Source: a virus. From it: DNA of 25,277 nucleotides. The stretch covers positions 1 to 25,277 of the IMG/VR virus record IMGVR_UViG_3300023175_000183, one strand, 5' to 3'. Positions 1 to 24,051 of this stretch are shown here, piece after piece (the first letter of the stretch is position 1; each line of letters starts with the position of its first letter). Below the pieces are notes generated by a model, which worked only from the letters and a program-made list of their open reading frames with translations, searched no databases and was not told the origin of the DNA. The position numbers and the translations under genes are program-made.

Positions 1-1019
1 TGTTAGAAGATGGTCGAGAAGTTACTAGTGACTTGTGGATGGACTGTACAGGCTTGGGCAGGTTGCTGATTGGCAAACTAACAGATGAGTTTATCCAAAC
101 ACCTGCTAACAAAATGAACAGTGCTTGGGTGTGTCCTATCAGTTACAAAGACAAAGATGCAGAATATGTAAACTACACAAGAAGCATTAGACAAGACATG
201 GGTTGGCAGTTCCAAATATGTTTAGATGCAAGAATAGGCACAGGCATTATCTACAGTGACGAATACTTCAGTGATGACGAAGCAAGAGATTGGTTGTTGG
301 AACAAGTTGAAGGCAGAAATCTGCGTCCACCTAAACAACTAAAATGGAAGCCAGGTAGATTGGCAAAACCAAATGTTGGAAACTGTTTTGCTATTGGTAT
401 GTCTGCAAGTTTTGTTGATCCATTAGAAGCAAACGCAGTGGTTAGTATCATTGCCAGCATTAAAAACATTGCGTGGATGTTGCAACGTGGATATGATAAA
501 AACTATTACAACGAAAAAATGAATCATTACTTCCAAGACATAGCAGATTATCTTGCTGTGCATTACACACTGTCACCTAAGGGCGACAATCATTTTTGGA
601 ATGACATGAGACGACTAGGTGAAGAACTTAATCACAAAGAACTTGTGAAACAAAAATATTATGACAAGGCAAACTGCATGGACGGTGTAATAGGATACCG
701 TACAGCGTTTCCAGATGTAAACTGGATTGATATTGCAAACAACTGGATGAGCAAAGAAGACTTGAGCAGTTGGCCAGTAAAGTCAACACCAGAACAACAA
801 CAAGAATACATTGCAAAGATGCGTAGTGAAAAATCTACACACGAAAGTCAAGCAAATAAAAATAAAAAATCGATTGACAAGTTCATGCAGATGTATAACA
901 ATGTACAAGAACACGACAAAGGCTTAAACAAATGGCCCTTGGACTACTTCAGTAAAATGTTTAGTCGTGAGGGTTGGCAATCACACGTAGGCAAACCAAA
1001 AACGGAATCTCAAATTTAA
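1..1019 (+). CDS. Flavin-dependent (tryptophan-type) halogenase, 5'-truncated by window edge
   Basis: The reading frame is open from base 3 to the stop at 1017-1019, so the gene starts left of the window; an internal TTG at 33 is not a credible start. The visible part matches the C-terminal two thirds of the tryptophan-halogenase family, enzymes that use FADH2, O2 and halide to halogenate an aromatic substrate. Visible landmarks are the segment DLWMDCTGLGRLL (the family's Rossmann-type 'DASG' region), GWQFQICL at 201-224 in the place of the WxWxIP halogenase motif, RIGTGIIYS, and FVDPLEANAV near 411-440, corresponding to the family's F-x-(E/D)PLE motif. The N-terminal FAD motif and catalytic Lys lie outside the window. 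The WxWxIP signature is altered (second Trp to Phe, Pro to Cys), so substrate or even activity may differ. A halogenase from cyanophage Syn10 (VirX1) is a known viral precedent. A C-terminal extension of about 100 residues is Lys/Gln-rich. Family membership is strong; the substrate is unknown. Confidence 0.85.
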   Translation, partial: LEDGREVTSDLWMDCTGLGRLLIGKLTDEFIQTPANKMNSAWVCPISYKDKDAEYVNYTRSIRQDMGWQFQICLDARIGTGIIYSDEYFSDDEARDWLLEQVEGRNLRPPKQLKWKPGRLAKPNVGNCFAIGMSASFVDPLEANAVVSIIASIKNIAWMLQRGYDKNYYNEKMNHYFQDIADYLAVHYTLSPKGDNHFWNDMRRLGEELNHKELVKQKYYDKANCMDGVIGYRTAFPDVNWIDIANNWMSKEDLSSWPVKSTPEQQQEYIAKMRSEKSTHESQANKNKKSIDKFMQMYNNVQEHDKGLNKWPLDYFSKMFSREGWQSHVGKPKTESQI

Positions 1020-1037
1020 TCCAACGGTAAACATATT

Positions 1038-1463
1038 ATGAGTTGGATGTACAAAGGCAAAACTGTAGAATCAATACCTGACGAATACGAAGGCTTTGTA
1101 TATCTGATCACAAACAAAAAGACAAAACAAAAATACGTAGGCAAGAAGTTAGCAAAATTTAAAACAACCAAGCCACCATTAAAAGGCAAAAAGAACAAGC
1201 GTCGAGGCTACAAAGAAAGCGATTGGCGTGAATACTGGGGAAGTTCAGATAGACTGAACGAAGATGTAAAAACACTAGGCGAAAAAAACTTTACTCGTGA
1301 AATACTTTACTACTGCAAAAGCAGAGCAGAGATGAGTTACATTGAAGCACGAGAACAGTTTGATAGGCGAGTATTAGAAACAGACGAATACTACAACGGC
1401 ATCATCAATGTAAGAGTTGGTGGTTCAAACAAACTACGCCAGGCACTACTAGAACACAAATAG
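1038..1463 (+). CDS. GIY-YIG nuclease-domain protein, putative
   Basis: A 141-aa basic protein starting at ATG 1038, 18 bases after the halogenase stop. Residues about 20-37 read GFVYLITNKKTKQKYVGKK, a fit to the GIY-YIG fold signature (here VYL...YVG) including the strand-loop-strand spacing. Later conserved-type elements are the YWGSSD segment and an ELxY-like stretch with a Glu-rich helix (SYIEAREQFDRR). Many T4-like phages carry such small free-standing GIY-YIG proteins (Seg-like homing nucleases or relatives). Lys/Arg richness between residues 36 and 65 suits DNA binding. No DNA-recognition domain follows, so it may cut with low specificity or be an accessory recombination nuclease. The stop codon abuts the structured non-coding region beginning at 1463, a layout that could mean a mobile or cis-acting RNA partner, but that link is inference. 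Confidence 0.72.
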   Translation: MSWMYKGKTVESIPDEYEGFVYLITNKKTKQKYVGKKLAKFKTTKPPLKGKKNKRRGYKESDWREYWGSSDRLNEDVKTLGEKNFTREILYYCKSRAEMSYIEAREQFDRRVLETDEYYNGIINVRVGGSNKLRQALLEHK

Positions 1464-1780
1464 GCTATATAACGAGCTCTGAAAAAAATCCAAGATCCAG
1501 CCGAGGTAATGCTCGTAGCCGGTGGTGTGGTATGCTCGCGTGAAGAAACATACGATAGGTTTTAAAGGATTGTGGCTCTGAGAAAAAGCAACCACAGGGT
1601 AAGTGTTTTCGCTTGTTAGGGAACGACTGCCTTCCGTTGATATGACGAAGCTAGAGTAGGAGGATACAGGTCAACCGCCTCCGACAATGTAAATTGAATC
1701 TCTTTTGACAAGATGGCTGAAGCGACTCGAATAATGCTCAAAAGCTACCTTCGCCCGGCAACGGGCGAATTATGACTTCA
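1463..1780 (+). ncRNA. Candidate structured RNA downstream of the GIY-YIG gene
   Basis: There is no credible ORF here on either strand, and GC is locally higher than in the neighbouring genes. Visible pairings on the plus strand: GGCTA (1463-1467) and CGAGC (1473-1477) pair with GCTCGTAGCC at about 1511-1520; TGTGG near 1570 pairs with CCACA near 1592; AAGTG-TTTT-CGCTT near 1602-1615; GGAGG 1659-1663 pairs with CCTCC 1678-1682, with GT/AC extending it; and TTCGCCCG 1750-1757 pairs with CGGGCGAA 1762-1769 around a GCAA (GNRA) tetraloop. I do not recognise the class. I see no convincing tRNA T-arm, no group I intron core, no RNase P core and no tmRNA tag frame. It could be a trans-acting RNA or a long 5' leader of the 1934 gene. 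The strand is assigned from the terminator downstream and the gene direction. Confidence 0.5.
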
Positions 1781-1800
1781 CAATCTGAATAATACTAAAA

Positions 1801-1900: not shown

Positions 1901-1908
1901 ACTAAATA
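1901..1908 (+). promoter_or_regulatory. Late-type promoter box ACTAAATA
   Basis: ACTAAATA resembles the T4-family late promoter TATAAATA, with the last six bases matching. It sits just downstream of the terminator and 25 bases before ATG 1934. With T4 late spacing the transcript would start near 1914, leaving a 20-base leader. Confidence 0.45.
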
Positions 1909-3588: not shown

Positions 3589-4431
3589 CTAGCCTGTAAC
3601 GAAAAAATCCGATGTATCTAAACTTACTCTAAGTTTGTCTTTGTGATTGCATTTATCGCATTCAATGTCTTCTGTTGGTAAACTCCAGTTTGTAATGTTG
3701 CTTTCGATAACACTTTTTACATGATGAAAAAACTTTACGTCTTGACCAGATGCTAAAAAGTTTACAATTTCTTGAGGATCTGTTTCAATTTCACCGTCAA
3801 CTTCTATGCTCTTGACTTGATTAATAATACTCATAATTGTCAATTCATTTATTTGTGCAATAATACTTTCAATAGCTTCTTCTTTTTTTGCTTCATCTTC
3901 AATCAAAGGAATTTGTAAGTTTAATGCCCTTTGAAAACTAGTTTGTTTCTTTTGTACTTCTGTCCATTGTCTATAAGTCAAAGGTTGCAGTTTTACAATA
4001 AAATTTTCATATTCAACAGTATCATTATAGGTTTTTGTAACATAATAATCTAAATATTTTTGCAAATCAATTTCATATGCATTATCTTCACTGCATTTTT
4101 TACAAACAGTGTTTACAGTCATTTGTTGTCCATATGTAGCTATTCTTATAGCAATCAAAATGCTATCAATATCAACTGTCCTAATATTCCAAGGATCAAG
4201 AATACTAGGAATACAACTTTTCATGTTATTAGCAGTGGCTTCGCCATTGACTAACGCATCAGGTGTTTTAAAAGCTATTTCATCATTGGCTGTCATACTA
4301 AAAACTGCCAAAGACGTTGATGTACCATCTGCAATTATATTTTCATTGTACCATTTTCCATTACTAGGTAAATCAATGTACAACTTAGGTTGTCGCTGAA
4401 ATTTCTGCAAAGGACTTTTTTTGTTTTCCAT
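3589..4431 (-). CDS. gp26: Baseplate hub subunit, T4 gp26-like
   Basis: A 280-aa protein starting at ATG 4431, with an AGGAAA ribosome-binding site 6-11 bases upstream on the minus strand. It has the hallmarks of the T4-like gp26 baseplate hub family: an N-terminal LYIDLPSNGKWYN segment, MTANDEIAFKTPDALVNGEA, a central Zn-binding type pair Cys110-x-x-Cys113 matched by Cys258-x-x-Cys261 near the C-terminus, and LQPLTYRQWTEVQK. In T4, gp26 takes part in assembling the baseplate central hub that caps the tape measure. It is the only substantial gene on the minus strand in this window and is followed by a 59-aa ORF on the same strand. A late-type box (AATAAATA) lies 32 bases upstream on its strand. 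The assignment rests on recognised motif layout and T4-like context. Confidence 0.8.
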   Translation of the reverse strand: MENKKSPLQKFQRQPKLYIDLPSNGKWYNENIIADGTSTSLAVFSMTANDEIAFKTPDALVNGEATANNMKSCIPSILDPWNIRTVDIDSILIAIRIATYGQQMTVNTVCKKCSEDNAYEIDLQKYLDYYVTKTYNDTVEYENFIVKLQPLTYRQWTEVQKKQTSFQRALNLQIPLIEDEAKKEEAIESIIAQINELTIMSIINQVKSIEVDGEIETDPQEIVNFLASGQDVKFFHHVKSVIESNITNWSLPTEDIECDKCNHKDKLRVSLDTSDFFVTG

Positions 4432-4495: not shown

Positions 4496-6595
4496 TTGGC
4501 AGAAGAAAGTAGAGCAGCAAGTTTATTCGGCTCAAGTCTAGATACATTAACCAAAGCCTTAGGTGGAACCGCAAAAACCGCTATAGGTTTAGGTGGAGCC
4601 CTACTTACTGGACAACAACAACTTAGTGCATACAGTGGTGCATTAGCAGAAAACACTGATGCTTTTGGCAAACTAGGCGGAGCACTTGGTAAAGTTGTAA
4701 ATGGTTTAACACAATTTGCTGAAGCAAGCCTAGCAGAATATCAAGCTCTCACAGGCATCGGTGCTACGTTTGGCAAAGAAATAAAAGATATCAAAGTAGC
4801 TGCTGCTGAATTAGGAATGACAGTTGAAGATATGACTGGCTTCCTAAGAGAAAATGCAAAAGGTTTAAGAGCATTTGGTGGTACTACTGACGAAGCTATG
4901 GCACGTTTCAAAGCTCTAAGTAACACTGTATTAGACAGTGCTGAACTTGGAATGGAACTACGTAGATTAGGATACACTACTAAAGATATCAACGAAGGAC
5001 TTGCTTTGTTTGGCGAAATTACACGAGCCAATGCTAACGAAGAAAGACAAACATTAGCACAGCAAGCAGTCAGTGCAAAAGCTCTAATGGTAGAATTAGA
5101 TGGATTATCTAAATTAACTGGAAAACAAAGACAAGAACTTGCTGATGAAATGAGAGCAAGAAGACGTCAAGGTGATATTAATGCATTCTTAATGGGCAAG
5201 AACGCTGATGAACAAGCTGCATTTACTGCACAACTTACAGAACTACAAGCAAAACTAGGACAAGATGCTGCTGATGCATTTGTTGATATTGCATTAAGAG
5301 GTGCTCCTACCACAGAAGGTGCTCGCAATGCTATGCTCGCTATGGGAGACGGCGCTGATGAATTATACAATGCGGCTGCTCAATTCAACAGAGGCGATAT
5401 TACAGCATTCCAAGAGAGTTTACGCACTGCAACTGGATTAGCAGTAGACTTTCAAGACACTGAAGAATTTAGGAACACTGCTATTTTAGGAAGTGTGACT
5501 GGTGTTTCTGATGCTTTTGCTAAAGCCAGTGGCGCAGCAATCGATTACAAAAATTCAATTGATTCTACTAAAGACGACACAATGACTGCTCAACAAGCAG
5601 AAAAAGAAATACGTGCTCAAATTCAAGAACAACAACTTACTCAAATGGAGCAAGTAACTGGTGTGTTTGATGAAACAATGAAAGTGCAAGAAAATCTGCG
5701 TAAATTAACATCGCAGGTTATGGAAGAAACTATTCCACACATTGAAAATGTTGCTATTGCAGGTTTGGAAAAAATGCAAGCTGCAATGCCTTCTGCTAAA
5801 GAAATTGCAGATGGTATTACTACTGGTGTGAATAATTTATTTAATGCAGCTGATCGCACTGATGCACTTGCAGAAGCACAAACTGAAACTACTCGTAGTA
5901 TAGACCAACTAGGTCCAAAAGTGGAAAGTGGAATACGAGAAAGTGCTGAAGAAACACAAGAAAAAACAGAAGAAGAATTAAAAAAATCAACAGAAAAAAC
6001 TGTTAGCTCTATATCAACAGCAGAAGACAGATTAGCTAAAGCAAATGCTAAGGTAGCAGAACTTACAAGTCAAGGCTTTGACGACATGGATCCTCCAATG
6101 CGAGCAGCAAAAGAAGCAGCAGAAAAAGCTGCTTTAGCAGTTGAAAGATTAGCCGAAGCTCAAGAATTTACTATGACCAAAATTGATGCGTACAATAGAG
6201 CAAGAGCAGGCATGGGTACATTCAGTGGTGGATTTGCAGATGGTGGTAATATTCCTGCTGGAGGTTTTGGAATGGTAGGAGAAGCAGGTCCAGAATTTGT
6301 CACAGGTCCTGCAAATATAATGAGTGCAAAAAATAGTATGGGTGCAATGCAAACACTTATGAAAAGCATAAGAACATTAGATACAAATGTTCAAGAAGTA
6401 AGTTCTAATATGGAAAATAACATAAGTACTAGTAGCGAACCTAATATGTATAATATGGAAAGCAATAAAAAATTAGACACAATGATTAGTCTTTTAGGTC
6501 AACTAATACAAGTTGAAAACATGGCAGTCGGAACACAACGACAAACAATGAAAGCCACTAAAGGATTAACTGGGAATATGTTGAGAGGTGTATAA
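4496..6595 (+). CDS. Tail tape-measure-like protein
   Basis: A 699-aa protein. The start is TTG 4496, supported by AGGAG at 4483-4487 with an 8-base spacer; no closer ATG fits. It is long, Ala/Gln/Glu-rich and mostly helical. A Gly-rich hydrophobic N-terminal stretch covers residues about 22-50, and a coiled-coil-prone region with many Gln/Glu/Lys runs from about 355 to 560 (for example EEELKKSTEKT). The C-terminal segment FADGGNIPAGGFGMVGEAGP near residue 580 is the Gly-rich motif commonly seen near the C-terminus of tape-measure proteins. Tape measures set tail length inside the tube and are released at infection. In T4 that role belongs to gp29 (590 aa); I cannot show homology to gp29, so no symbol is given. 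The stop is directly followed by the portal ATG (TAA-ATG), indicating co-translation. Confidence 0.7.
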   Translation: MAEESRAASLFGSSLDTLTKALGGTAKTAIGLGGALLTGQQQLSAYSGALAENTDAFGKLGGALGKVVNGLTQFAEASLAEYQALTGIGATFGKEIKDIKVAAAELGMTVEDMTGFLRENAKGLRAFGGTTDEAMARFKALSNTVLDSAELGMELRRLGYTTKDINEGLALFGEITRANANEERQTLAQQAVSAKALMVELDGLSKLTGKQRQELADEMRARRRQGDINAFLMGKNADEQAAFTAQLTELQAKLGQDAADAFVDIALRGAPTTEGARNAMLAMGDGADELYNAAAQFNRGDITAFQESLRTATGLAVDFQDTEEFRNTAILGSVTGVSDAFAKASGAAIDYKNSIDSTKDDTMTAQQAEKEIRAQIQEQQLTQMEQVTGVFDETMKVQENLRKLTSQVMEETIPHIENVAIAGLEKMQAAMPSAKEIADGITTGVNNLFNAADRTDALAEAQTETTRSIDQLGPKVESGIRESAEETQEKTEEELKKSTEKTVSSISTAEDRLAKANAKVAELTSQGFDDMDPPMRAAKEAAEKAALAVERLAEAQEFTMTKIDAYNRARAGMGTFSGGFADGGNIPAGGFGMVGEAGPEFVTGPANIMSAKNSMGAMQTLMKSIRTLDTNVQEVSSNMENNISTSSEPNMYNMESNKKLDTMISLLGQLIQVENMAVGTQRQTMKATKGLTGNMLRGV

Positions 6596-9267: not shown

Positions 9268-9296
9268 AGACAGCCTTGACAATAAAGGAGAATGAC

Positions 9297-10340
9297 ATGA
9301 CTGATCGCAACAAGTTTGAAGAAATGCTTGAGCGCCTCGTCAACGAAGACAGAGAAGGTGCAGAAGCATTGTTCCACGAAATCGTGGTAGAAAAATCAAG
9401 AGATATTTACGAATCACTACTTGAAGATGAAGAAGAAGTAGAAGAAACAACTGATGAAGAAGTTGATGAAGCTACAGATGAAGAAGTAGATGAATCAGAA
9501 GAAGATCTAGACGAAGCAACAGATGAAGAAGTAGACGAAGCAACTGACGAAGAAGTTGACGAAGCTGCTGATGAAGATCTAGATGAAGCAGACGAAGAAG
9601 TTGACGAAAACTTTTTTGGTGACGAAGTCGCAGTAGAAGGTGACCCAGTAGACGATATGATGGGTGACGTAGAAGATCCAGATATGGCAATGGAACCAGA
9701 AATGGGTGACGACGATATGGGTATGGGCGACGAAGAAGGCGATGTAGAAGATCGTGTTGCAGACCTAGAAGACGAACTAGAAGCTCTAAAAGCAGAATTT
9801 GAAGCTATGATGGGCGACGAAGAGCCAGGTGATGAAGAGCCAGCTGATGATATGCCAATGGATATGGATTCAGAAGAAGGTGACGACGAAGAAGCTGAAG
9901 AAGAAGCAATTGCTTTCGAAGACGAAGAAGTAGAAGAAGCAGCTGACGAAGAAGTAGAAGAGTCAAAAGCACCAAAGTCACAAACAGAAATTATGCGTGA
10001 ATACACAGATAAAGTCACCGGCGGCGGCTTAGATGCTTCTAAAATTGGCGGAGACAATGGTGCGAATGCAAAATCAGTAGTTGCAGGTAAAAACGATATG
10101 GGCGGAACATCTGCAAATATCGCAAAAGGTGGAGACGCTGACACAGGCGGCACAACCGGCGGCTTAGCAGCACCATCAACGAAAGAAGATAACGCAGGGA
10201 ATGTAAACGTTCCAGGCGGTAAGGCTTCAAAATCAATGAAGTCACAACCCGGCCATGGTGCCGAGAAAAAAGGCAAGCCAGAAGGTGCTGACAAAAGCGC
10301 AGGCTCACCTTTAAATGGTGCTCCTAAAAGAGCAAAATAA
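9297..10340 (+). CDS. Highly acidic prohead core protein (gp68 position)
   Basis: ATG 9297 is chosen because AAAGGAGA lies 6-13 bases upstream; an in-frame TTG at 9276 lies before that site. The 347-aa product begins with a helical domain (NKFEEMLERLVNEDREGAEA, then FHEIVVEKSRDIYESLL) of about 45 residues. It is followed by an extremely acidic region with an 8-residue repeat of type ATDEEVDE, an Asp/Met-rich stretch (MGDDDMGMGDEEG), a heptad-like segment (RVADLEDELEALKAEFEAMM), and a Gly/Asn/Lys-rich C-terminus. Marine T4-like phages encode such a protein between gp20 and gp21, where T4 has core gene 68. Its charge and gp21 neighbour suggest a scaffold-core component that is degraded during maturation. 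It lies 10 bases before gp21 and is probably co-transcribed with it. Confidence 0.75.
   Translation: MTDRNKFEEMLERLVNEDREGAEALFHEIVVEKSRDIYESLLEDEEEVEETTDEEVDEATDEEVDESEEDLDEATDEEVDEATDEEVDEAADEDLDEADEEVDENFFGDEVAVEGDPVDDMMGDVEDPDMAMEPEMGDDDMGMGDEEGDVEDRVADLEDELEALKAEFEAMMGDEEPGDEEPADDMPMDMDSEEGDDEEAEEEAIAFEDEEVEEAADEEVEESKAPKSQTEIMREYTDKVTGGGLDASKIGGDNGANAKSVVAGKNDMGGTSANIAKGGDADTGGTTGGLAAPSTKEDNAGNVNVPGGKASKSMKSQPGHGAEKKGKPEGADKSAGSPLNGAPKRAK
9450..9608 (+). repeat. Tandem 24-base coding repeat (ATDEEVDE type)
   Basis: Imperfect tandem copies of a GAT-GAA-GAA-GTW-GAY-GAA-GCW-ACW-type unit encode about 6-7 copies of an 8-residue acidic repeat within the core protein. Some units are replaced by variants with DLDE. 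Synonymous differences between copies show that the array is not freshly duplicated. Confidence 0.7.
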
Positions 10341-16458: not shown

Positions 16459-19400
16459 ATGAGTTTTATTAAGAGACAGTCAATACATAGCAGAAAGGTT
16501 GGAGATAATACTTTTATCTTAACAGCTGACGGCAATATGGAGATGAACCTCGATGAAGGAAAGTCATTTTCCATAGATGCAAACGTAATTGTTACAGGCG
16601 ATCAATCAGGACCTAAAACACGAAATGTGTATTATGTCACTGAAGATGGCAATGACAGCAATGACGGTTTAAGCAGTGATAAAAATGGAGCCTTTGCTAG
16701 TATTAAACGTGCAGCAGAAGTAGCACCTGAAGGTTCTACAATCATTGTTGCACCAGGTGATTATTATGAAAATAACCCTATTACACTAAGAGATTTTGTG
16801 ACTGTCTCTGGACAAGGTGAATTACGTAACACAAGAGTATTTCCAAAAAATAACACAGACGATTTGTTCTTTATGGGTAATGGTTGTTACCTATTCCAAA
16901 TGACATTTAGAGGACTACGCTATCCAGGTTGGTGTGCAAGAATACGTCCAGGCGCACTTGTAACAACATCACCTTATGTACAAAACTGTACTAACATGAA
17001 TGGACCTTGGTTGAACGATGGTACAGAATTTATTCCTTTTGAAACTGTTCAAATTCCAGGAATTGAACCAAGTGCAAGACCTTTACAAGTTGAAGATTAT
17101 CCAACACTTCCTGTAGAAAAACAAGTGAATCCAACAGGCGGCGGCGGAGGTATACTTGTTGATGGTGACGAATACGATCCGGCATCACTTGTTTTCAGTT
17201 TCGTTGCAGATGCGTTTACACAAATTTCGCAAGGTGGTATTGGCTTCCACATTACAAACTTTGGTTATACACAGATTGTTAGTTGCTTCTCGGTTTTCTG
17301 TTCAACAGGATTCTTAACTACCAAAGGTGGCTATCTATCAATTTCAAACTCAGTTAGTGACTTTGGTTTAGAAGGTGTTGTTGCAGATGGATTTTATCCA
17401 ATTGCTTATACAACTGCTGTTCCTGCACAAGATTATTTTTCAAGTGTTGCCAGTGTTACAATGGATTTTGCAGGATTAGGATACACAGGAACACCTACAG
17501 TTACATTTGATCCTCCATTAGGCACAGGCGGCGTAACTGCTACAGGTACAGCACAAGTTGACCTTACAACAGGAACTGTTTCTGCTGTAAGTATTACCAA
17601 TCCAGGAAATGGATATACAACAATTCCTCAAGTAAGATTTACTGGCGGTGGCGCTAGTGTTGATGCAACAGCAGATGTAAATCTTAGAACAAACGGAACA
17701 TTATTACTTGATAGTTTAAGAGAAAAACCTGCAACAGGTAGTATTATTAAATTTGAAGATGATCCTCAATATTATTACGTTACAGGCACAGATGTAACAG
17801 TAAATCCTTTTACATACAATGTTGAAACTTGTAAGAGAGATGTAAGAAGAATTATTGATGCTGTAACTAGTGATATTGTTTTTGGCACTTACTATCAAAG
17901 TACAGCAGCAGCAACAAGTTATTTAAGAAGCACAAGTGCTAAAGTTATTATTGATCAGTTAGCACCTACTGTTTATGGTATTGAAGCAGCAAGAGATGAA
18001 TTAAAAGCTCTAACTTCAAACTTAGCACTTAAAGAAGAAATAGACCAAAGATTTGCAGTTATAACAGAAACACTTAATGCAGGTGATAGTAGTGTAACTG
18101 AATATTTAGGCAGTGACTTTGCAGCAAGTTTAAATGATTTATCAATCATTGATGATGAAGTTATTGAAGCAAAAGATAATATTTTAGCAAACAGAGATTT
18201 TATCATTGAAGAAATCACTGCATACATAAATGATCAATTCACAGAACTAAGTTATAATCAAGCTGTGTATGAATCAGAGCTAAGACAACTGTTTACAGAA
18301 ATGTCTTATTACATACCTACTGGTAGTACTCATAACATTGTAAGACAAGCACAAGAGTTTACATTTAGAACACGTTTCAAAGCAATGTTTATGTCTAGCT
18401 TTGATTATATGCAGCAACAGTTTTTAGCATTGACAGAAGTTGCAGATAGTACAGTAGCAACTAATGCTGTAATAGAAACATTCAATACATTGAAAAATGT
18501 TGTTGATGACGGTGATAGCTCAGGTATTGTATCAATATTCCCTGCAAGCACAGGGTCAACACAAAACGGTATAGATGCAAAGGATCATTTACAAGCAAAT
18601 AAAACTTACTTGCTTGCAGAATGGGTAGCATATCTTAACAGTATTAACACAACAATTACATATGATCAAGCAGAATGGGAAGGTTATGTAAGTGACTTTA
18701 TTGATGCATTATCATATGATATTATGTATGGCGGCAATTCTGCAACTGTTCAAGAAACAACTTTCTTCTTCAACAAAGTTACCTGGTCAAGTTTTACAAC
18801 TGCTGAGATAACAAGCATAGAAGATACATTTGCAAGATTAAGATTTGTTATACAAAGAGTTATTAGAGGATTAACTGTTACTGCATCAACAGGTAACGTT
18901 GAATCGCAAGATTTTTCAAGCGGCAATGCAACTCAAGTTGAAGCAAGCAGAATTGATGGTTTAATTCAAAATGTAGAATTAATTATTAATGAACAGGCAT
19001 TAACAAATCTTTCTTCAAAAATTTACCCAATTATTGATGATGAGCCAACTGAGCAAGTAGATGCTTCAAATGACATCCAAGGACAAATTGATAATATTAT
19101 CACTGATACTATTGCATATAACTTGTTGAACAATCCTACACTTACATACAATGTTGAAAAATGTAAACGTGACGTAGGATATTTGATTGATGCAGTTTAT
19201 AGAGATGCTCAACTAGGTACAAACCATCATAGCATAACAGCAGGCTTGGCTTACAGTAGAGCAAATGTTGCATACTTGAATTCAGAACAAAAGCCTGCAA
19301 CTTTGATTGCATTAAGATATGCAAAAACAGAAGCAGTTGAAGCAGCAAGTACAAATGCAGCATTCCAAACAACTGTTGGTAATTTGTTTGATGATATTTT

Positions 19401-22400
19401 TAATATTATTGAATATGATCAATTACCAAGTGAAGGAAACCTATATCCAGAACCAGGGCCAGCAAGTAATGCATTAATTAATGCCCACGACCAATTAGTA
19501 GCCAACAGAGCCTTTTTAGCAGCAGACGTTGTTGCATATATCAATGCTAACAACTTTACATATGACCAAGCCAAATGTGAAAGAGATACAGGACTTATCA
19601 TTGACGGTGCAGGTTATGATGCATTGTTAGGAACAAACTATAATGCAGTAACAAATGGATTAGCATACCAACGTGCAAACAGTGCAAAAGTTATTTCGGA
19701 TCAGTTAACTGAAACTATTGCTGCACTAAATTATGCAAAAGGTGAAGCAAGCACAGCTACAGCAAGTGATACAGCAACACAAACAGCAGTTGAAGCAAAC
19801 TTTGACGAAGTAATTGATATTTTACAGAACGGTGTTGTTAGTACAGACACAGCAGCTGATCCATTAACATTCACTAACCCAACTAGTGCAACAGCAGCAC
19901 AAATTGCAGCAAAAGATCAATTGATAGCAAACAGAGATTTCTTAGCAGCAGAAGCAGTATCTTACATTCAAAACAACTATCAAGACTTTACTTACAATAG
20001 ATCTAAATGTGAGCGCGATACTGGATTAATTATGGATGCAGTGGCACTAGACATTGCTTTAGGAACAAACTACAACAGTGTTACAGCAGGACTTGCTTAC
20101 CAAAGAGCAAGTAATGCATACTTACAAGATAATCAAAATATACAAACTTTAGCAGCATTAAATGAATTAAAAGATCAATTGATAACGTTAGGGCTTACAG
20201 ATGTAGTTGAGCCTCTGTCAAATGCTGCAATTGATGAAATAATTGATATTTTTACAAATGGAGTTATCAGCACAGATACAGCAGCAGATGCTCTAGTATT
20301 TCCTACACCAGGAACATTACCTACTACAAACGCAGTAGAAGCAAAAGATCAATTAATTGCAAACAAAAATTTCATTATTGCAGAAATTAATGCTTGGATT
20401 GCAGTAAACTTTCCTTCATTAGTTTATGATACATTGAAATGCGAAAGAGATGTTGGATACATTATTGATGCGGTATGTCACGATATTTTATACGGTGGCA
20501 ACAGTGCAACTATAACAGTAGCAAATAGTTACTTTGTTGACGGTGTAAGTCAATTAGGATCACCAAGTGAAGAAGCAGCAACACACGCTGCATATGGAAG
20601 ACTAAAAGATATAATTGGCGACATTGTTATGGAATTGCCAATTGTTAAAAGCACAGGAAACACTGCATTCCAAGATACAACTGGTACTCCTGCAAGTTCA
20701 ACAGAATCAGATGATGCCGAAGGTTTAGTAGATATTATTGAAACTGTAATACGTGAAGGCAACCTTGATAGCGTACCAGCAACACAACTGCCAAATATTA
20801 CTTGGGCAAGCGATGAATTACAACAAGGCTACAATACTATCAAAGCAAACAAAGATCTTGTAGCAGAAAACATTGTAATCTTTATTGCTAATAACTTCCA
20901 ATCATTTGACTACGACGAAGCTAAATGTCGTAGAGATGTAGGAATCATGGTAGAAGCAGTTGCTTATGACGGTGCTATTGGTACAAACTATAATAGTGTA
21001 ACTGCAGGACTTGCATATCAAAGAGCTAACAGTGGATATGTTCTAAGCGATCAAAATTTACAAACTATTAAGGCGATCGAGTATTTAAGAGATTATATTG
21101 ATACTGAATATTTTAGACTGTCTAGTTTGTTTAGAACAAGAGTAAAAGCAGGTTTTAACGAGATTATTGATATCATTGAGAACGGCACAGTAAGCACCGA
21201 TGATGCAGCCGATGCAATAGTATATCCAGATAGTGGTATTAATGCAAACTATCCAATCGGTGTAACTCAACTACAAAACAACAGAGAATTCTTAGCAGCT
21301 GAAACCACAGCATATGTGACAAATAACTTCCCATCATTGGTTTTTGATTCGGATAAGTGTGCAAGAGATGTTAAGTATATTGTAGATGCTATTAGTTACG
21401 ATATTATGTACACAGGTAACTTGGCAACAAAACAAGCCGCAGAAAGTTACTATGTAGGTACTACAAGTCAGTTAGGTGCAGGACAAAAAGCTGCAACTGT
21501 TGCAGCATACCAAGAACTTGCAAATCTACTATCTGACGTTGTACAAGACATACCACACGGTACATTAGAACAAGCAACAGTAACTCAAGATATTACTGGC
21601 GGCGATGCTGGTCCAGTTGTAGCAGGCATTGCAGATAACTTGATTCAGTATGTTGAAGATGTAATTAACTCAGAAAGTATTTCGGTACTACCAGCAGACA
21701 ATGATACAGATCTTAGCTGGACAAGTGTACAATTACAAGAAGATTTTACTTTGTTAACTACTCAAACAGAAGAACTACAAAATCTTGTAATAGATTACAT
21801 TAACTTTAGATTTACAAGAACATTTGAATTCAACGCAACAAAATGTAACAGAGATACAAAGTATATTGTGGATGCACTAACATACGATATACTATATGGT
21901 GGCAATGCTGCAACCTACTCTGCTGCACAAAGTTACTATGTTGGTACAGCAAGTCAGGTAAGTGGACAACAAACTGAGACAGCTAATGCACTTGCTTGGG
22001 TGAAAACCTTGTTAGGTAGTGTTTTACTTGATACTGTGTACTCTGATCCAGAACAAACAGTTGAAACACAAGACACAACTGCTGGTGCAGCAAGTGCTAC
22101 AGAAGTAACAAGAGCAGAAACATTGTTGCAAATCATCCAAGATGTTATCGAAAATGGCACAGATAACTTGCCAAGCACTGTAACTTATCCAGACACAACT
22201 TGGGCAAGTGCAGGTGCTCAAACTGCAATTGATAATTTACAATCACAGAAACAAACAATCGTCGATGGTACAATTAACTTACTAGAAACAACTTATAATG
22301 CGTTTAACTATAACGAAGCAAAATGCTTAGAAGACACTGGTCAAATCATTGATGCTGTGGTATATGACTTGTTATACACAGGTAACATTGCTACCTTGAT

Positions 22401-24051
22401 TGCAACTAGAGCATACTTCTTAGGAACAGCCAATTATCTACCAGATGAGCAAAAAGATCAAACTGTGGCAGCGTATGCACACTTGCAAGACATTGCAGTG
22501 AAGTGTGTCGAAGGTATTGCTGTAACACCACAAGTTGGTAACAGTGAATCACAAGTACTAAGCGGAAGCTATGGCACTAGCGTAGAAAGTACAACAGCAA
22601 ATGATTTGATTGAAATTGTAAAAAGTGCAGTTGATAATCAAACACTTGTAGGAACTCCAAGCGAAGTTGAACATGATTACAGTTGGTTGCCTTCTACAAT
22701 TAGAACAGCAGGTGCAGCATTATTATCAGAAAAAGCAAATATTCAAAACGATACTATTACATATATCAACAATACAATACTTGGATTTGATTACAACATA
22801 GACAAGTGTGCGAGAGACACTGGATATATTATTGATGCAGTAGTGTATGATGTTATGTATGGTGGTAATAAGCAATCACGTAGAGCAGGTGAAGCATACT
22901 ATAGTGGTGCTATATTGAACAATTTGACAAACACCGACTATGCAAACCAAAGTGATATCACTGCTTACACATATTTCTATCTTGGTACAATTATGAAAAA
23001 GGTTGCAGCAAATGATCCTGTTACCAAAAGTTATAATAACCTAACCAACCAAACGTTCTTGACAAACAACGATGCAAGTTCAACTGTAGGTGATAATGTT
23101 AAATTGCTTGTAGATAGAATCGGACTAGCAGTTCTTGAAAACAGCACTGAAGGTTGGCACGAAGTACCACACAATCACGAATTAGGTAGTGCTGTATATC
23201 ATAGTGAAAGAAATGCATTGTTGAGACAACAAGAAACTGTTGTAACTAATGCTATTGATGCATTGAATGCTGAATTTGGTGGATCTGCTGAAATTACTGT
23301 GTTCCCAGGACTAACAAGTGTTACACAAGATAAGAAAGCAGCACTGTACAATGTTAGTACAATTTCAACATCAGGACACGCATTTGAATATGTTGGTGCA
23401 GGCGTAACATACAACGCACTTCCGTTCTTTGGAGGTACAGCAGATGCAACAAAAGAAATCATTGAACGTAATCAAGGTAAAGTGTTTGCCGGTGGTACTG
23501 TTGACCAAATTGGTAACTTTAGAGTTGGTAACTTCTTTGGTGTTAACGCTCTAACAGGTGCAATTACATTAAACGCTAACGAAATTGACTTATCAGGTTT
23601 AACCAGTGTTGGTCCGTTTATTAGAGACGGTATTCCTGTTGGTGTTGAACTGAAAGAGGTAAGTGATAGTGCAAACTTGATATCTAGTATTGGTACTCAA
23701 GACTTTAACACTGTACCTACACAGAAAGCGGTTGCAACATATGTTGAAAACAGATACTTAAACAAACTTACAGGCGGCACTGTAAACGGTAGCACAACGT
23801 TTGATATTGACGTGACAGTTGATGGTACACTGATACTTACAAACAATGACTTAGAAGTACAGTATGGTGGTACAGGTGTAAGCACATTTACTGAAGATGG
23901 TATCTTATATGGTGATACTTCTAATCCAGTGAAAGTAACTGACGCAGCAGGCACAAGTGATGCAAGCAACAGTTTCCAAGTATTGACAGTAACAAGTGGT
24001 AGTGATACAACTCCAGTTTGGACTGATACACTCGACGGTGGTAGCTTCTAA
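16459..24051 (+). CDS. Giant fibre-like structural protein with 12 tandem repeats (2530 aa)
   Basis: ATG 16459 follows the previous stop without a gap. Domains in order: an N-terminal beta-helix/pectin-lyase-like module (about 50-340; NVYYVTEDGNDSNDGL, TIIVAPGDYYENNPIT, GGYLSISNSVSDFGLEGVVA). Next come two Gly-Tyr turn repeats (LGYTGTPTVTF and GYTTIPQVRF, about 345-400), then twelve degenerate repeats of 136-162 residues from 451 to about 2270, each opening with a (F/L)xYxxxKCxRDxxxIIDA-type helix. The C-terminal fibre module (about 2300-2530) has TVPTQKAVATYVENRYLNK and YGGTGVSTFTEDGILYG, common in phage fibres. The helical repeats are unusual for a beta-rich fibre and may form a long rod. 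The gene occupies 30% of the window, consistent with a long host-contact appendage. No signal peptide or protease domain is seen. The receptor is unknown. Confidence 0.75.
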   Translation: MSFIKRQSIHSRKVGDNTFILTADGNMEMNLDEGKSFSIDANVIVTGDQSGPKTRNVYYVTEDGNDSNDGLSSDKNGAFASIKRAAEVAPEGSTIIVAPGDYYENNPITLRDFVTVSGQGELRNTRVFPKNNTDDLFFMGNGCYLFQMTFRGLRYPGWCARIRPGALVTTSPYVQNCTNMNGPWLNDGTEFIPFETVQIPGIEPSARPLQVEDYPTLPVEKQVNPTGGGGGILVDGDEYDPASLVFSFVADAFTQISQGGIGFHITNFGYTQIVSCFSVFCSTGFLTTKGGYLSISNSVSDFGLEGVVADGFYPIAYTTAVPAQDYFSSVASVTMDFAGLGYTGTPTVTFDPPLGTGGVTATGTAQVDLTTGTVSAVSITNPGNGYTTIPQVRFTGGGASVDATADVNLRTNGTLLLDSLREKPATGSIIKFEDDPQYYYVTGTDVTVNPFTYNVETCKRDVRRIIDAVTSDIVFGTYYQSTAAATSYLRSTSAKVIIDQLAPTVYGIEAARDELKALTSNLALKEEIDQRFAVITETLNAGDSSVTEYLGSDFAASLNDLSIIDDEVIEAKDNILANRDFIIEEITAYINDQFTELSYNQAVYESELRQLFTEMSYYIPTGSTHNIVRQAQEFTFRTRFKAMFMSSFDYMQQQFLALTEVADSTVATNAVIETFNTLKNVVDDGDSSGIVSIFPASTGSTQNGIDAKDHLQANKTYLLAEWVAYLNSINTTITYDQAEWEGYVSDFIDALSYDIMYGGNSATVQETTFFFNKVTWSSFTTAEITSIEDTFARLRFVIQRVIRGLTVTASTGNVESQDFSSGNATQVEASRIDGLIQNVELIINEQALTNLSSKIYPIIDDEPTEQVDASNDIQGQIDNIITDTIAYNLLNNPTLTYNVEKCKRDVGYLIDAVYRDAQLGTNHHSITAGLAYSRANVAYLNSEQKPATLIALRYAKTEAVEAASTNAAFQTTVGNLFDDIFNIIEYDQLPSEGNLYPEPGPASNALINAHDQLVANRAFLAADVVAYINANNFTYDQAKCERDTGLIIDGAGYDALLGTNYNAVTNGLAYQRANSAKVISDQLTETIAALNYAKGEASTATASDTATQTAVEANFDEVIDILQNGVVSTDTAADPLTFTNPTSATAAQIAAKDQLIANRDFLAAEAVSYIQNNYQDFTYNRSKCERDTGLIMDAVALDIALGTNYNSVTAGLAYQRASNAYLQDNQNIQTLAALNELKDQLITLGLTDVVEPLSNAAIDEIIDIFTNGVISTDTAADALVFPTPGTLPTTNAVEAKDQLIANKNFIIAEINAWIAVNFPSLVYDTLKCERDVGYIIDAVCHDILYGGNSATITVANSYFVDGVSQLGSPSEEAATHAAYGRLKDIIGDIVMELPIVKSTGNTAFQDTTGTPASSTESDDAEGLVDIIETVIREGNLDSVPATQLPNITWASDELQQGYNTIKANKDLVAENIVIFIANNFQSFDYDEAKCRRDVGIMVEAVAYDGAIGTNYNSVTAGLAYQRANSGYVLSDQNLQTIKAIEYLRDYIDTEYFRLSSLFRTRVKAGFNEIIDIIENGTVSTDDAADAIVYPDSGINANYPIGVTQLQNNREFLAAETTAYVTNNFPSLVFDSDKCARDVKYIVDAISYDIMYTGNLATKQAAESYYVGTTSQLGAGQKAATVAAYQELANLLSDVVQDIPHGTLEQATVTQDITGGDAGPVVAGIADNLIQYVEDVINSESISVLPADNDTDLSWTSVQLQEDFTLLTTQTEELQNLVIDYINFRFTRTFEFNATKCNRDTKYIVDALTYDILYGGNAATYSAAQSYYVGTASQVSGQQTETANALAWVKTLLGSVLLDTVYSDPEQTVETQDTTAGAASATEVTRAETLLQIIQDVIENGTDNLPSTVTYPDTTWASAGAQTAIDNLQSQKQTIVDGTINLLETTYNAFNYNEAKCLEDTGQIIDAVVYDLLYTGNIATLIATRAYFLGTANYLPDEQKDQTVAAYAHLQDIAVKCVEGIAVTPQVGNSESQVLSGSYGTSVESTTANDLIEIVKSAVDNQTLVGTPSEVEHDYSWLPSTIRTAGAALLSEKANIQNDTITYINNTILGFDYNIDKCARDTGYIIDAVVYDVMYGGNKQSRRAGEAYYSGAILNNLTNTDYANQSDITAYTYFYLGTIMKKVAANDPVTKSYNNLTNQTFLTNNDASSTVGDNVKLLVDRIGLAVLENSTEGWHEVPHNHELGSAVYHSERNALLRQQETVVTNAIDALNAEFGGSAEITVFPGLTSVTQDKKAALYNVSTISTSGHAFEYVGAGVTYNALPFFGGTADATKEIIERNQGKVFAGGTVDQIGNFRVGNFFGVNALTGAITLNANEIDLSGLTSVGPFIRDGIPVGVELKEVSDSANLISSIGTQDFNTVPTQKAVATYVENRYLNKLTGGTVNGSTTFDIDVTVDGTLILTNNDLEVQYGGTGVSTFTEDGILYGDTSNPVKVTDAAGTSDASNSFQVLTVTSGSDTTPVWTDTLDGGSF
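17809..23270 (+). repeat. Twelve-copy degenerate protein repeat array, two length classes
   Basis: Repeat starts at protein residues 451, 597 (degenerate), 733, 895, 1033, 1177, 1321, 1483, 1627, 1789, 1949 and 2110. Copies with GTNYNSVTAGLAYQRA-type cores are 138-144 residues apart (starts 895, 1033, 1177, 1483). Copies with YGGNxATxxAxxYYxG-type cores are 160-162 apart (733, 1321, 1627, 1789, 1949). The final copy (2110) is also of the second type and runs into the C-terminal module. Nucleotide identity is low, so the array is old. The Cys in K-C-x-R-D is kept in most copies. Confidence 0.85.

Follow-up and report, generated by a model that had tools for sequence, protein, structure and literature searches.

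A distinct phage halogenase clade with phenylalanine at the second tryptophan of the WxWxIP signature, encoded between gp46 and a GIY-YIG gene

Introduction

Genes for flavin-dependent halogenases (FDHs) are known from phages: prnA has been reported from cyanophages (PMC3037559), as has VirX1, described as preferring iodide in vitro (PMC8407142). BrvH, which has an intact WxWxIP motif, halogenates indole without the contacts to free tryptophan and prefers bromide (PMC5945002). Loss of the Trp4 motif has been tied to loss of tryptophan binding, and FDHs without it lack the contacts to free tryptophan and accept indole and other small aromatics (PMC8269204, PMC5945002). According to one proposal, the WxWxIP motif keeps the substrate away from the flavin and so prevents hydroxylation (PMC10696468); the role of its individual residues has been called unclear (PMC10696468, PMC5945002), and a 2023 review, in which the single-residue roles are regarded as unresolved, calls for engineering of the motif (PMC10696468). 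Since WxWxIP or its variants are missing in a number of FDHs (PMC8407142), the motif does not strictly define the family, and a departure from it was treated in the present study as a variant within the family.

The gene described here lies at the start of a 25,277-base IMG/VR virus fragment (the window) and represents a distinct halogenase clade, separate from those of cyanophages, in which a W274→F replacement in the signature is fixed (numbering of PrnA from Burkholderia pyrrocinia, the reference for the alignments).

Results and discussion

Recovery of the complete gene and family assignment

The halogenase frame is open from the first contig bases and runs for 338 codons to a TAA, its 5′ side being truncated at the contig end and its 3′ stop lying inside the window (Table 1). 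Pfam Trp_halogenase (PF04820) matched these 338 residues with an E-value of 1.4e-42 and 146.6 bits (cut-off 21), and PHROG 2928 (“tryptophan halogenase”) with 1.8e-48; the PF04820 alignment begins at profile position 196, which shows that the window lacks the N-terminal portion. The full gene, whose recovery had been proposed in an earlier note on this DNA, was obtained from L002 (IMGVR 3300020055_001282), another contig of this species, which encodes the identical 338 residues with some differing synonymous codons and carries the complete gene at L002:2723-4378; the 551-aa product was named P0001. A 58.7-kb contig (G001) that ends within the halogenase gene shares 99.1% identity with L002 over 2,983 nt and thus belongs to the same species. 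Full-length members of the clade scored 244–283 bits against PF04820. A contig-end artefact or a frameshift as the source of the unusual signature was ruled out by the agreement of independent contigs, and sequencing error does not account for it either, since the independent contig L002 agrees and phenylalanine occurs in every sampled clade member.

Table 1 Coordinates of features in the window
Feature	Position	Strand	Basis
Flavin-dependent halogenase gene, C-terminal 338 codons (residues 214-551)	3..1019	+	Frame 3 ORF, PF04820, PHROG 2928
Altered WxWxIP signature GWQFQICL	201..224	+	Alignment to PrnA
W281 (= PrnA W272), kept	204-206	+	Signature alignment
F283 (= PrnA W274), replaced	210-212	+	Signature alignment
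Altered Fx.Px.Sx.G loop FVDPLEANA (S347→A, G349→A)	411..437	+	PrnA alignment
Catalytic Glu355 (= PrnA E346)	426-428	+	PrnA alignment
GIY-YIG gene (SegE-like, PF19835), closing the gp47-gp46-orf85-halogenase unit	1038..1463	+	PF19835 4.2e-33, PHROG 447
Non-coding RNA, conserved and structured; final element ahead of the virion genes, separate from the enzyme	1461..1790	+	Alignment
Late promoter-like CTAAATA, 32 nt upstream of ORF1934, which opens the flanking unit	1902..1908	+	Motif match

The best solved PDB sequence matches of P0001 were halogenases (E 1e-48 to 1e-24), and the sole other flavoenzyme among the matches listed was CmlS; a CmlS-type or other monooxygenase was rejected as a better match (6e-5 against 1e-48 for halogenases). 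A search of NCBIfam with P0001 returned no family. Modelling, which had also been proposed earlier, gave an AF2 model without ligand from 91 viral homologues (pLDDT 89.4, pTM 0.90) that matches tryptophan halogenases: all of its top 50 Foldseek matches in the PDB were flavin halogenases (TM 0.70–0.79 for the ligand-free model), including PyrH, Xcc4156, RebH, Thal, PrnA, BrvH and VirX1. A model built from just 12 close homologues was discarded (pLDDT 44). By its intact FAD motif and catalytic residues and its sequence and structure matches, the gene at the window start belongs to the halogenase family, and the probable reaction of the encoded enzyme is the chlorination, bromination or iodination of an aromatic compound. 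The flavin-dependent halogenase proposed in the earlier note is thus borne out by PF04820, PHROG 2928, the full gene, its catalytic residues and the solved matches; of the observations that would have spoken against it, a better match to a non-halogenating flavin monooxygenase was not found among the solved matches, and the GxGxxG motif and catalytic lysine are present in the full gene as GGGFAG and K72, together with E355.

Catalytic residues and the altered signature

In the alignment to PrnA, P0001 has its FAD motif GGGFAG at residues 7–12, with GVGES also present. Residues K72 (= K79), W281 (= W272), I285 (= I276) and E355 (= E346) are kept; W274, P277, S347 and G349 are changed to F283, C286, A356 and A358, respectively. 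K72, E355 and W281 are invariant among the 91 aligned viral homologues, and lysine stands at the catalytic position in 230 of 232 non-redundant FDH ORFs, a nearly entirely viral set whose counts mirror locus sampling and not natural frequencies. In place of WxWxIP the signature reads W-x-F-x-I-C: the first tryptophan and the isoleucine are kept, and the second tryptophan (PrnA W274), the only signature tryptophan replaced, is phenylalanine throughout the clade. The signature deviation reported earlier is therefore real, with W274→F as its only distinctive part; the P277 position is C, P, T or A within the clade, and its change was for this reason given no weight. The Fx.Px.Sx.G tunnel motif of P0001 likewise carries S→A and G→A changes. 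An A/A or A/S pair at S347/G349 occurs in 105 of the 232 ORFs, 74 of which have an intact W274, so the loop does not set the window clade apart and was dropped as its hallmark.

The residue at position 274 among the 232 ORFs is W in 200, F in 30, and Y and L in one each. Phenylalanine was found in all 25 sampled ORFs of the window clade (L211 included), encoded by TTT in 19 and by TTC in two of the 21 checked; five further F274 cases lie outside the clade, and the tree requires at least two changes. The clade is supported by SH-aLRT values of 99 with and 96 without L211, its basal member (signature GWIFKIGL); it sits on a long stem of about 1.0 changes per site and is separate from the VirX1, PrnA and HTVC008M/P-SSM2 groups. 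Plasmid-borne bacterial FDHs (25–31% identity) served as the outgroup, and the four sampled all keep W274; scanning of genome contigs with narrow patterns found no bacterial members of the window clade. The dN/dS was 0.036 against L003 and 0.05–0.13 for the other pairs with usable dS (0.036–0.127 overall), one near-identical pair giving a noise-prone 0.25 at dS 0.02. Phenylalanine in all 25 sampled members, together with purifying selection, argues that W274→F is a maintained lineage trait and not decay.

A whole lineage under purifying selection that carries W→F with an intact catalytic pair offers a natural test of a debated residue, and the basal L211 and the unrelated W274→F occurrences add to the natural variants of WxWxIP. 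Among other phage halogenases with a replaced W274, the second halogenase of P-TIM40 (L036:3960-5597) reads GWCYNIPL, and further cases read GWILDVPL (L251), GWMFKIPV (L244) and GWMFRTPT (L232).

Comparison with known halogenases

VirX1 of cyanophage Syn10 (PDB 6qgm, L011:2986-4509), which the earlier note had named as a precedent, is related to P0001 but distant (27% identity over 77% of the protein). Both are phage FDHs of the same fold (TM 0.70–0.72) and of the open-site class, sharing GxGxxG, GVGES, the lysine, the glutamate and the lack of the Trp4 clamp, whereas VirX1 carries GWVWNVPL and FIEPLESNG where P0001 has GWQFQICL and FVDPLEANA, and its gene adjoins a gp37/38-like gene and another halogenase gene, a genomic place and a phage group that differ from those of the window. 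PrnA, RebH, Thal and PyrH share with P0001 the fold, the FAD motif, the K79/E346 pair and W272; P0001 differs from them in W274→F, P277→C, S347→A and G349→A and in the absence of Trp2 and Trp4, identity being about 23%. BrvH, Xcc4156 and the group C FDHs resemble P0001 (TM 0.73–0.75) in the absence of the Trp4 loop, shown for BrvH (PMC5945002), but BrvH has the intact WxWxIP that P0001 lacks. The prnA genes of T4-like cyanophages and Pelagibacter phage HTVC008M (T4-GC 212) are also phage-borne FDH genes, whereas their sampled enzymes keep W274 (one Y, in P-TIM40) and form a clade separate from that of the window. The earlier note called such enzymes rare in phages, but they are common: 64 phage records match P0001, and relatives of the cyanophage enzymes are encoded in no fewer than 593 IMG/VR stretches.

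Genomic place, cargo slot and phage lineage

Every clade locus with enough flank has the order gp47, gp46, short ORF, halogenase, GIY-YIG, non-coding stretch and virion genes, except that the short ORF (about 85 aa, orf85) lies behind the halogenase in L021 and L022 and was not found in some loci. In L002 the stop of the short ORF overlaps the start of the halogenase in the sequence ATGA, and the two may therefore be translationally coupled there. The PHROG 447 name “NAD synthetase” is doubtful for the GIY-YIG gene product, which is a GIY-YIG (SegE-like) domain protein; the name recurs in phage annotations.

A T4-late-like NTAAATA was found at most 75 nt upstream of 30 out of 30 starts heading the flanking virion units (background 2.5%) and of none of the 104 starts in the gp47-to-GIY-YIG unit. 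The unit heads considered were ORF1934, a T4_baseplate-family gene (3589-4431), a 699-aa ORF (4496-6595), the ORF at 9276-10340 and, on the opposite strand, the baseplate-side gene upstream of gp47. This difference makes it more likely that the halogenase is transcribed with the recombination genes than with the virion genes, and the expression that the earlier note had suggested from its place beside late virion genes is not supported, the gene lying within the gp47-gp46-orf85-halogenase-GIY-YIG unit. One NTAAATA about 210 nt upstream of the halogenase in L017 indicates that the lack of late promoter-like sites is not absolute and that late expression may occur in some members. Farther along the window, at 16459-24051, a 2,530-aa ORF with recurring similar blocks (e.g. 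YNxAKCxRDxGxIIDAV) probably encodes a large tail or structural protein.

The site between gp46 and GIY-YIG is occupied variably. Among 82 loci that were found via the neighbouring RNA and retain the gp46–GIY-YIG order, most have the two genes 2–80 bp or about 220–280 bp (orf85 only) apart; just one locus has the halogenase and others have longer inserts. Of the 18 loci whose gp46 is at least 85% identical, 17 lack the halogenase and have an empty slot (about 240–280 bp with orf85 alone). Other cargo comprises SufE together with SHMT or with glyoxalase, radical-SAM enzymes and a 2OG-Fe(II) oxygenase (L286, L303, L307, L325, L355, L273). In S-B64 the halogenase lies directly behind the recombination endonuclease (gp46) gene, and the gene that directly follows the halogenase in P-SSM2 carries the annotation “NAD synthetase”, as PHROGs call the GIY-YIG family of the window. 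The empty slot in close relatives, the alternative cargo and the S-B64 and P-SSM2 arrangements together argue that the halogenase is an accessory gene at a site used repeatedly for cargo, which places a phage halogenase in a cargo slot beside gp46.

The carriers are uncultured T4-like phages. Their genome is likely of the jumbo type, judging from the major capsid protein, which has 67–70% identity to its counterparts in Sinorhizobium phage Phosso (469 kb), Vibrio phage 2.275.O (349 kb) and PA5oct (287 kb), and from the portal protein, with 50–53% identity to that of related jumbo phages. Phage halogenases, known from cyanophages and pelagiphages, thereby extend to a probable jumbo-type group.

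Proposed function and alternative explanations

The Trp4 clamp (YYxxF...NFW...) and the Trp2 motif HxFG are absent from P0001, the window having WSNWH at Trp2; with the tryptophan-clamp motif missing, free tryptophan is an unlikely substrate. We favour, with moderate confidence, an active two-component halogenase with an aromatic substrate that is probably not free tryptophan, carried as cargo expressed with the recombination genes. The gene, its fold family, the intact catalytic residues, the clade-wide W274→F, purifying selection, the location and the alternative cargo are established; its activity, reductase source, substrate class and timing are the parts that we infer. Reduced FAD would be supplied by a reductase, probably the host's, and would react with O2 and halide to hypohalous acid, which would move through the internal tunnel to Lys72; Lys72 with Glu355 would then hand the halogen to an electron-rich aromatic substrate in the open site, probably other than free tryptophan. 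Phenylalanine at position 274 would retain the aromatic wall separating flavin and substrate, so that the change may tune the site without destroying it. The enzyme would be expressed alongside recombination rather than virion genes, and its target would be a metabolite or protein of the host (or of the phage). No match to flavin reductase PF01613 was found in nine incomplete fragments of the phage group (about 0.4 Mb in total), and a host-derived reductase is a possible partner. Counting against this explanation, P0001 departs from both FDH-specific motifs (W274→F; S347→A, G349→A), one of which has been ascribed a role in suppressing hydroxylation (PMC10696468).

With peptide-halogenating FDHs as the analogy, an active enzyme might instead modify a phage or host protein or peptide. 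The missing free-tryptophan clamp would suit such a role, the authors of the BrvH study discuss an FDH acting solely on peptide-bound tryptophan (PMC5945002), cyanophage FDH genes often adjoin tail-fibre, collagen-like and 2OG-oxygenase genes, and the window's phage lineage has many radical-SAM genes; the clade neighbours are, however, gp46 and GIY-YIG, with no adjacent tail-fibre or precursor-peptide gene, and we regard this alternative as unlikely. It is more doubtful still that W274→F and the changed flavin-tunnel loop together altered the reaction, to hydroxylation or to a halide or substrate preference unseen in known FDHs, acting on a host metabolite early in infection. A narrower proposal is that the enzyme has become a flavin-dependent hydroxylase, the loss of W274 exposing the substrate to C4a-hydroperoxyflavin so that oxygenation replaces halogenation. 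It would agree with the proposed shielding role of WxWxIP and the unclear single-residue roles (PMC10696468, PMC5945002), with the deviation of both motifs in P0001 and with the 2OG-Fe(II) oxygenase that another phage has in the same gp46/GIY-YIG slot, but is distinctly improbable because the invariant catalytic lysine and glutamate serve HOX delivery and not hydroxylation, W272 is retained, position 274 is still aromatic and the closest solved matches are halogenases. A degenerate or inactive relic, or an FAD-binding protein with a non-catalytic role, might explain the deviating motifs but is hardly credible given dN/dS values of 0.036–0.127, full-length open frames in complete clade members, invariant catalytic residues and fixed synteny.

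Radical-SAM genes and a neighbouring structured RNA

Radical-SAM genes occur in tandem in this phage group: a cassette lies at about 63–96 kb of G005 (L259-L263), a 97.8-kb contig with 20 PF04055 matches, and another at 0–18 kb of the incomplete 58.7-kb contig G001 (L256) of the window species, which has eight. Each of the eight tested radical-SAM ORFs matches NF033640 (“twitch domain-containing radical SAM protein”), and AMP-binding and Asn-synthase/GATase ORFs lie close to the cassette. An earlier study reported 12 radical-SAM genes in the genome of a T4-like marine phage (PMC5332604).

A structured RNA of about 300 nt lies behind the GIY-YIG gene, its core, GGCUCUGAGAAAAAGCAACC, having served as the search pattern and being thus invariant by selection. 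It is present in at least 119 IMG/VR loci (L265-L383), 97 of which have a detected GIY-YIG gene and 92 a detected gp46, as well as in the window, L043, L018, L008, L003 and L017. Rfam and tRNA/tmRNA searches and a search of the phage record collection gave no match. Single-sequence folding was no better than that of shuffled sequences (z 0.78), the structure being shown by the alignment alone: among 47 diverse sequences, 13 of the 19 predicted pairs are retained through two-sided changes, in up to 29 sequences, and none is broken. The RNA looks like a new phage RNA family.
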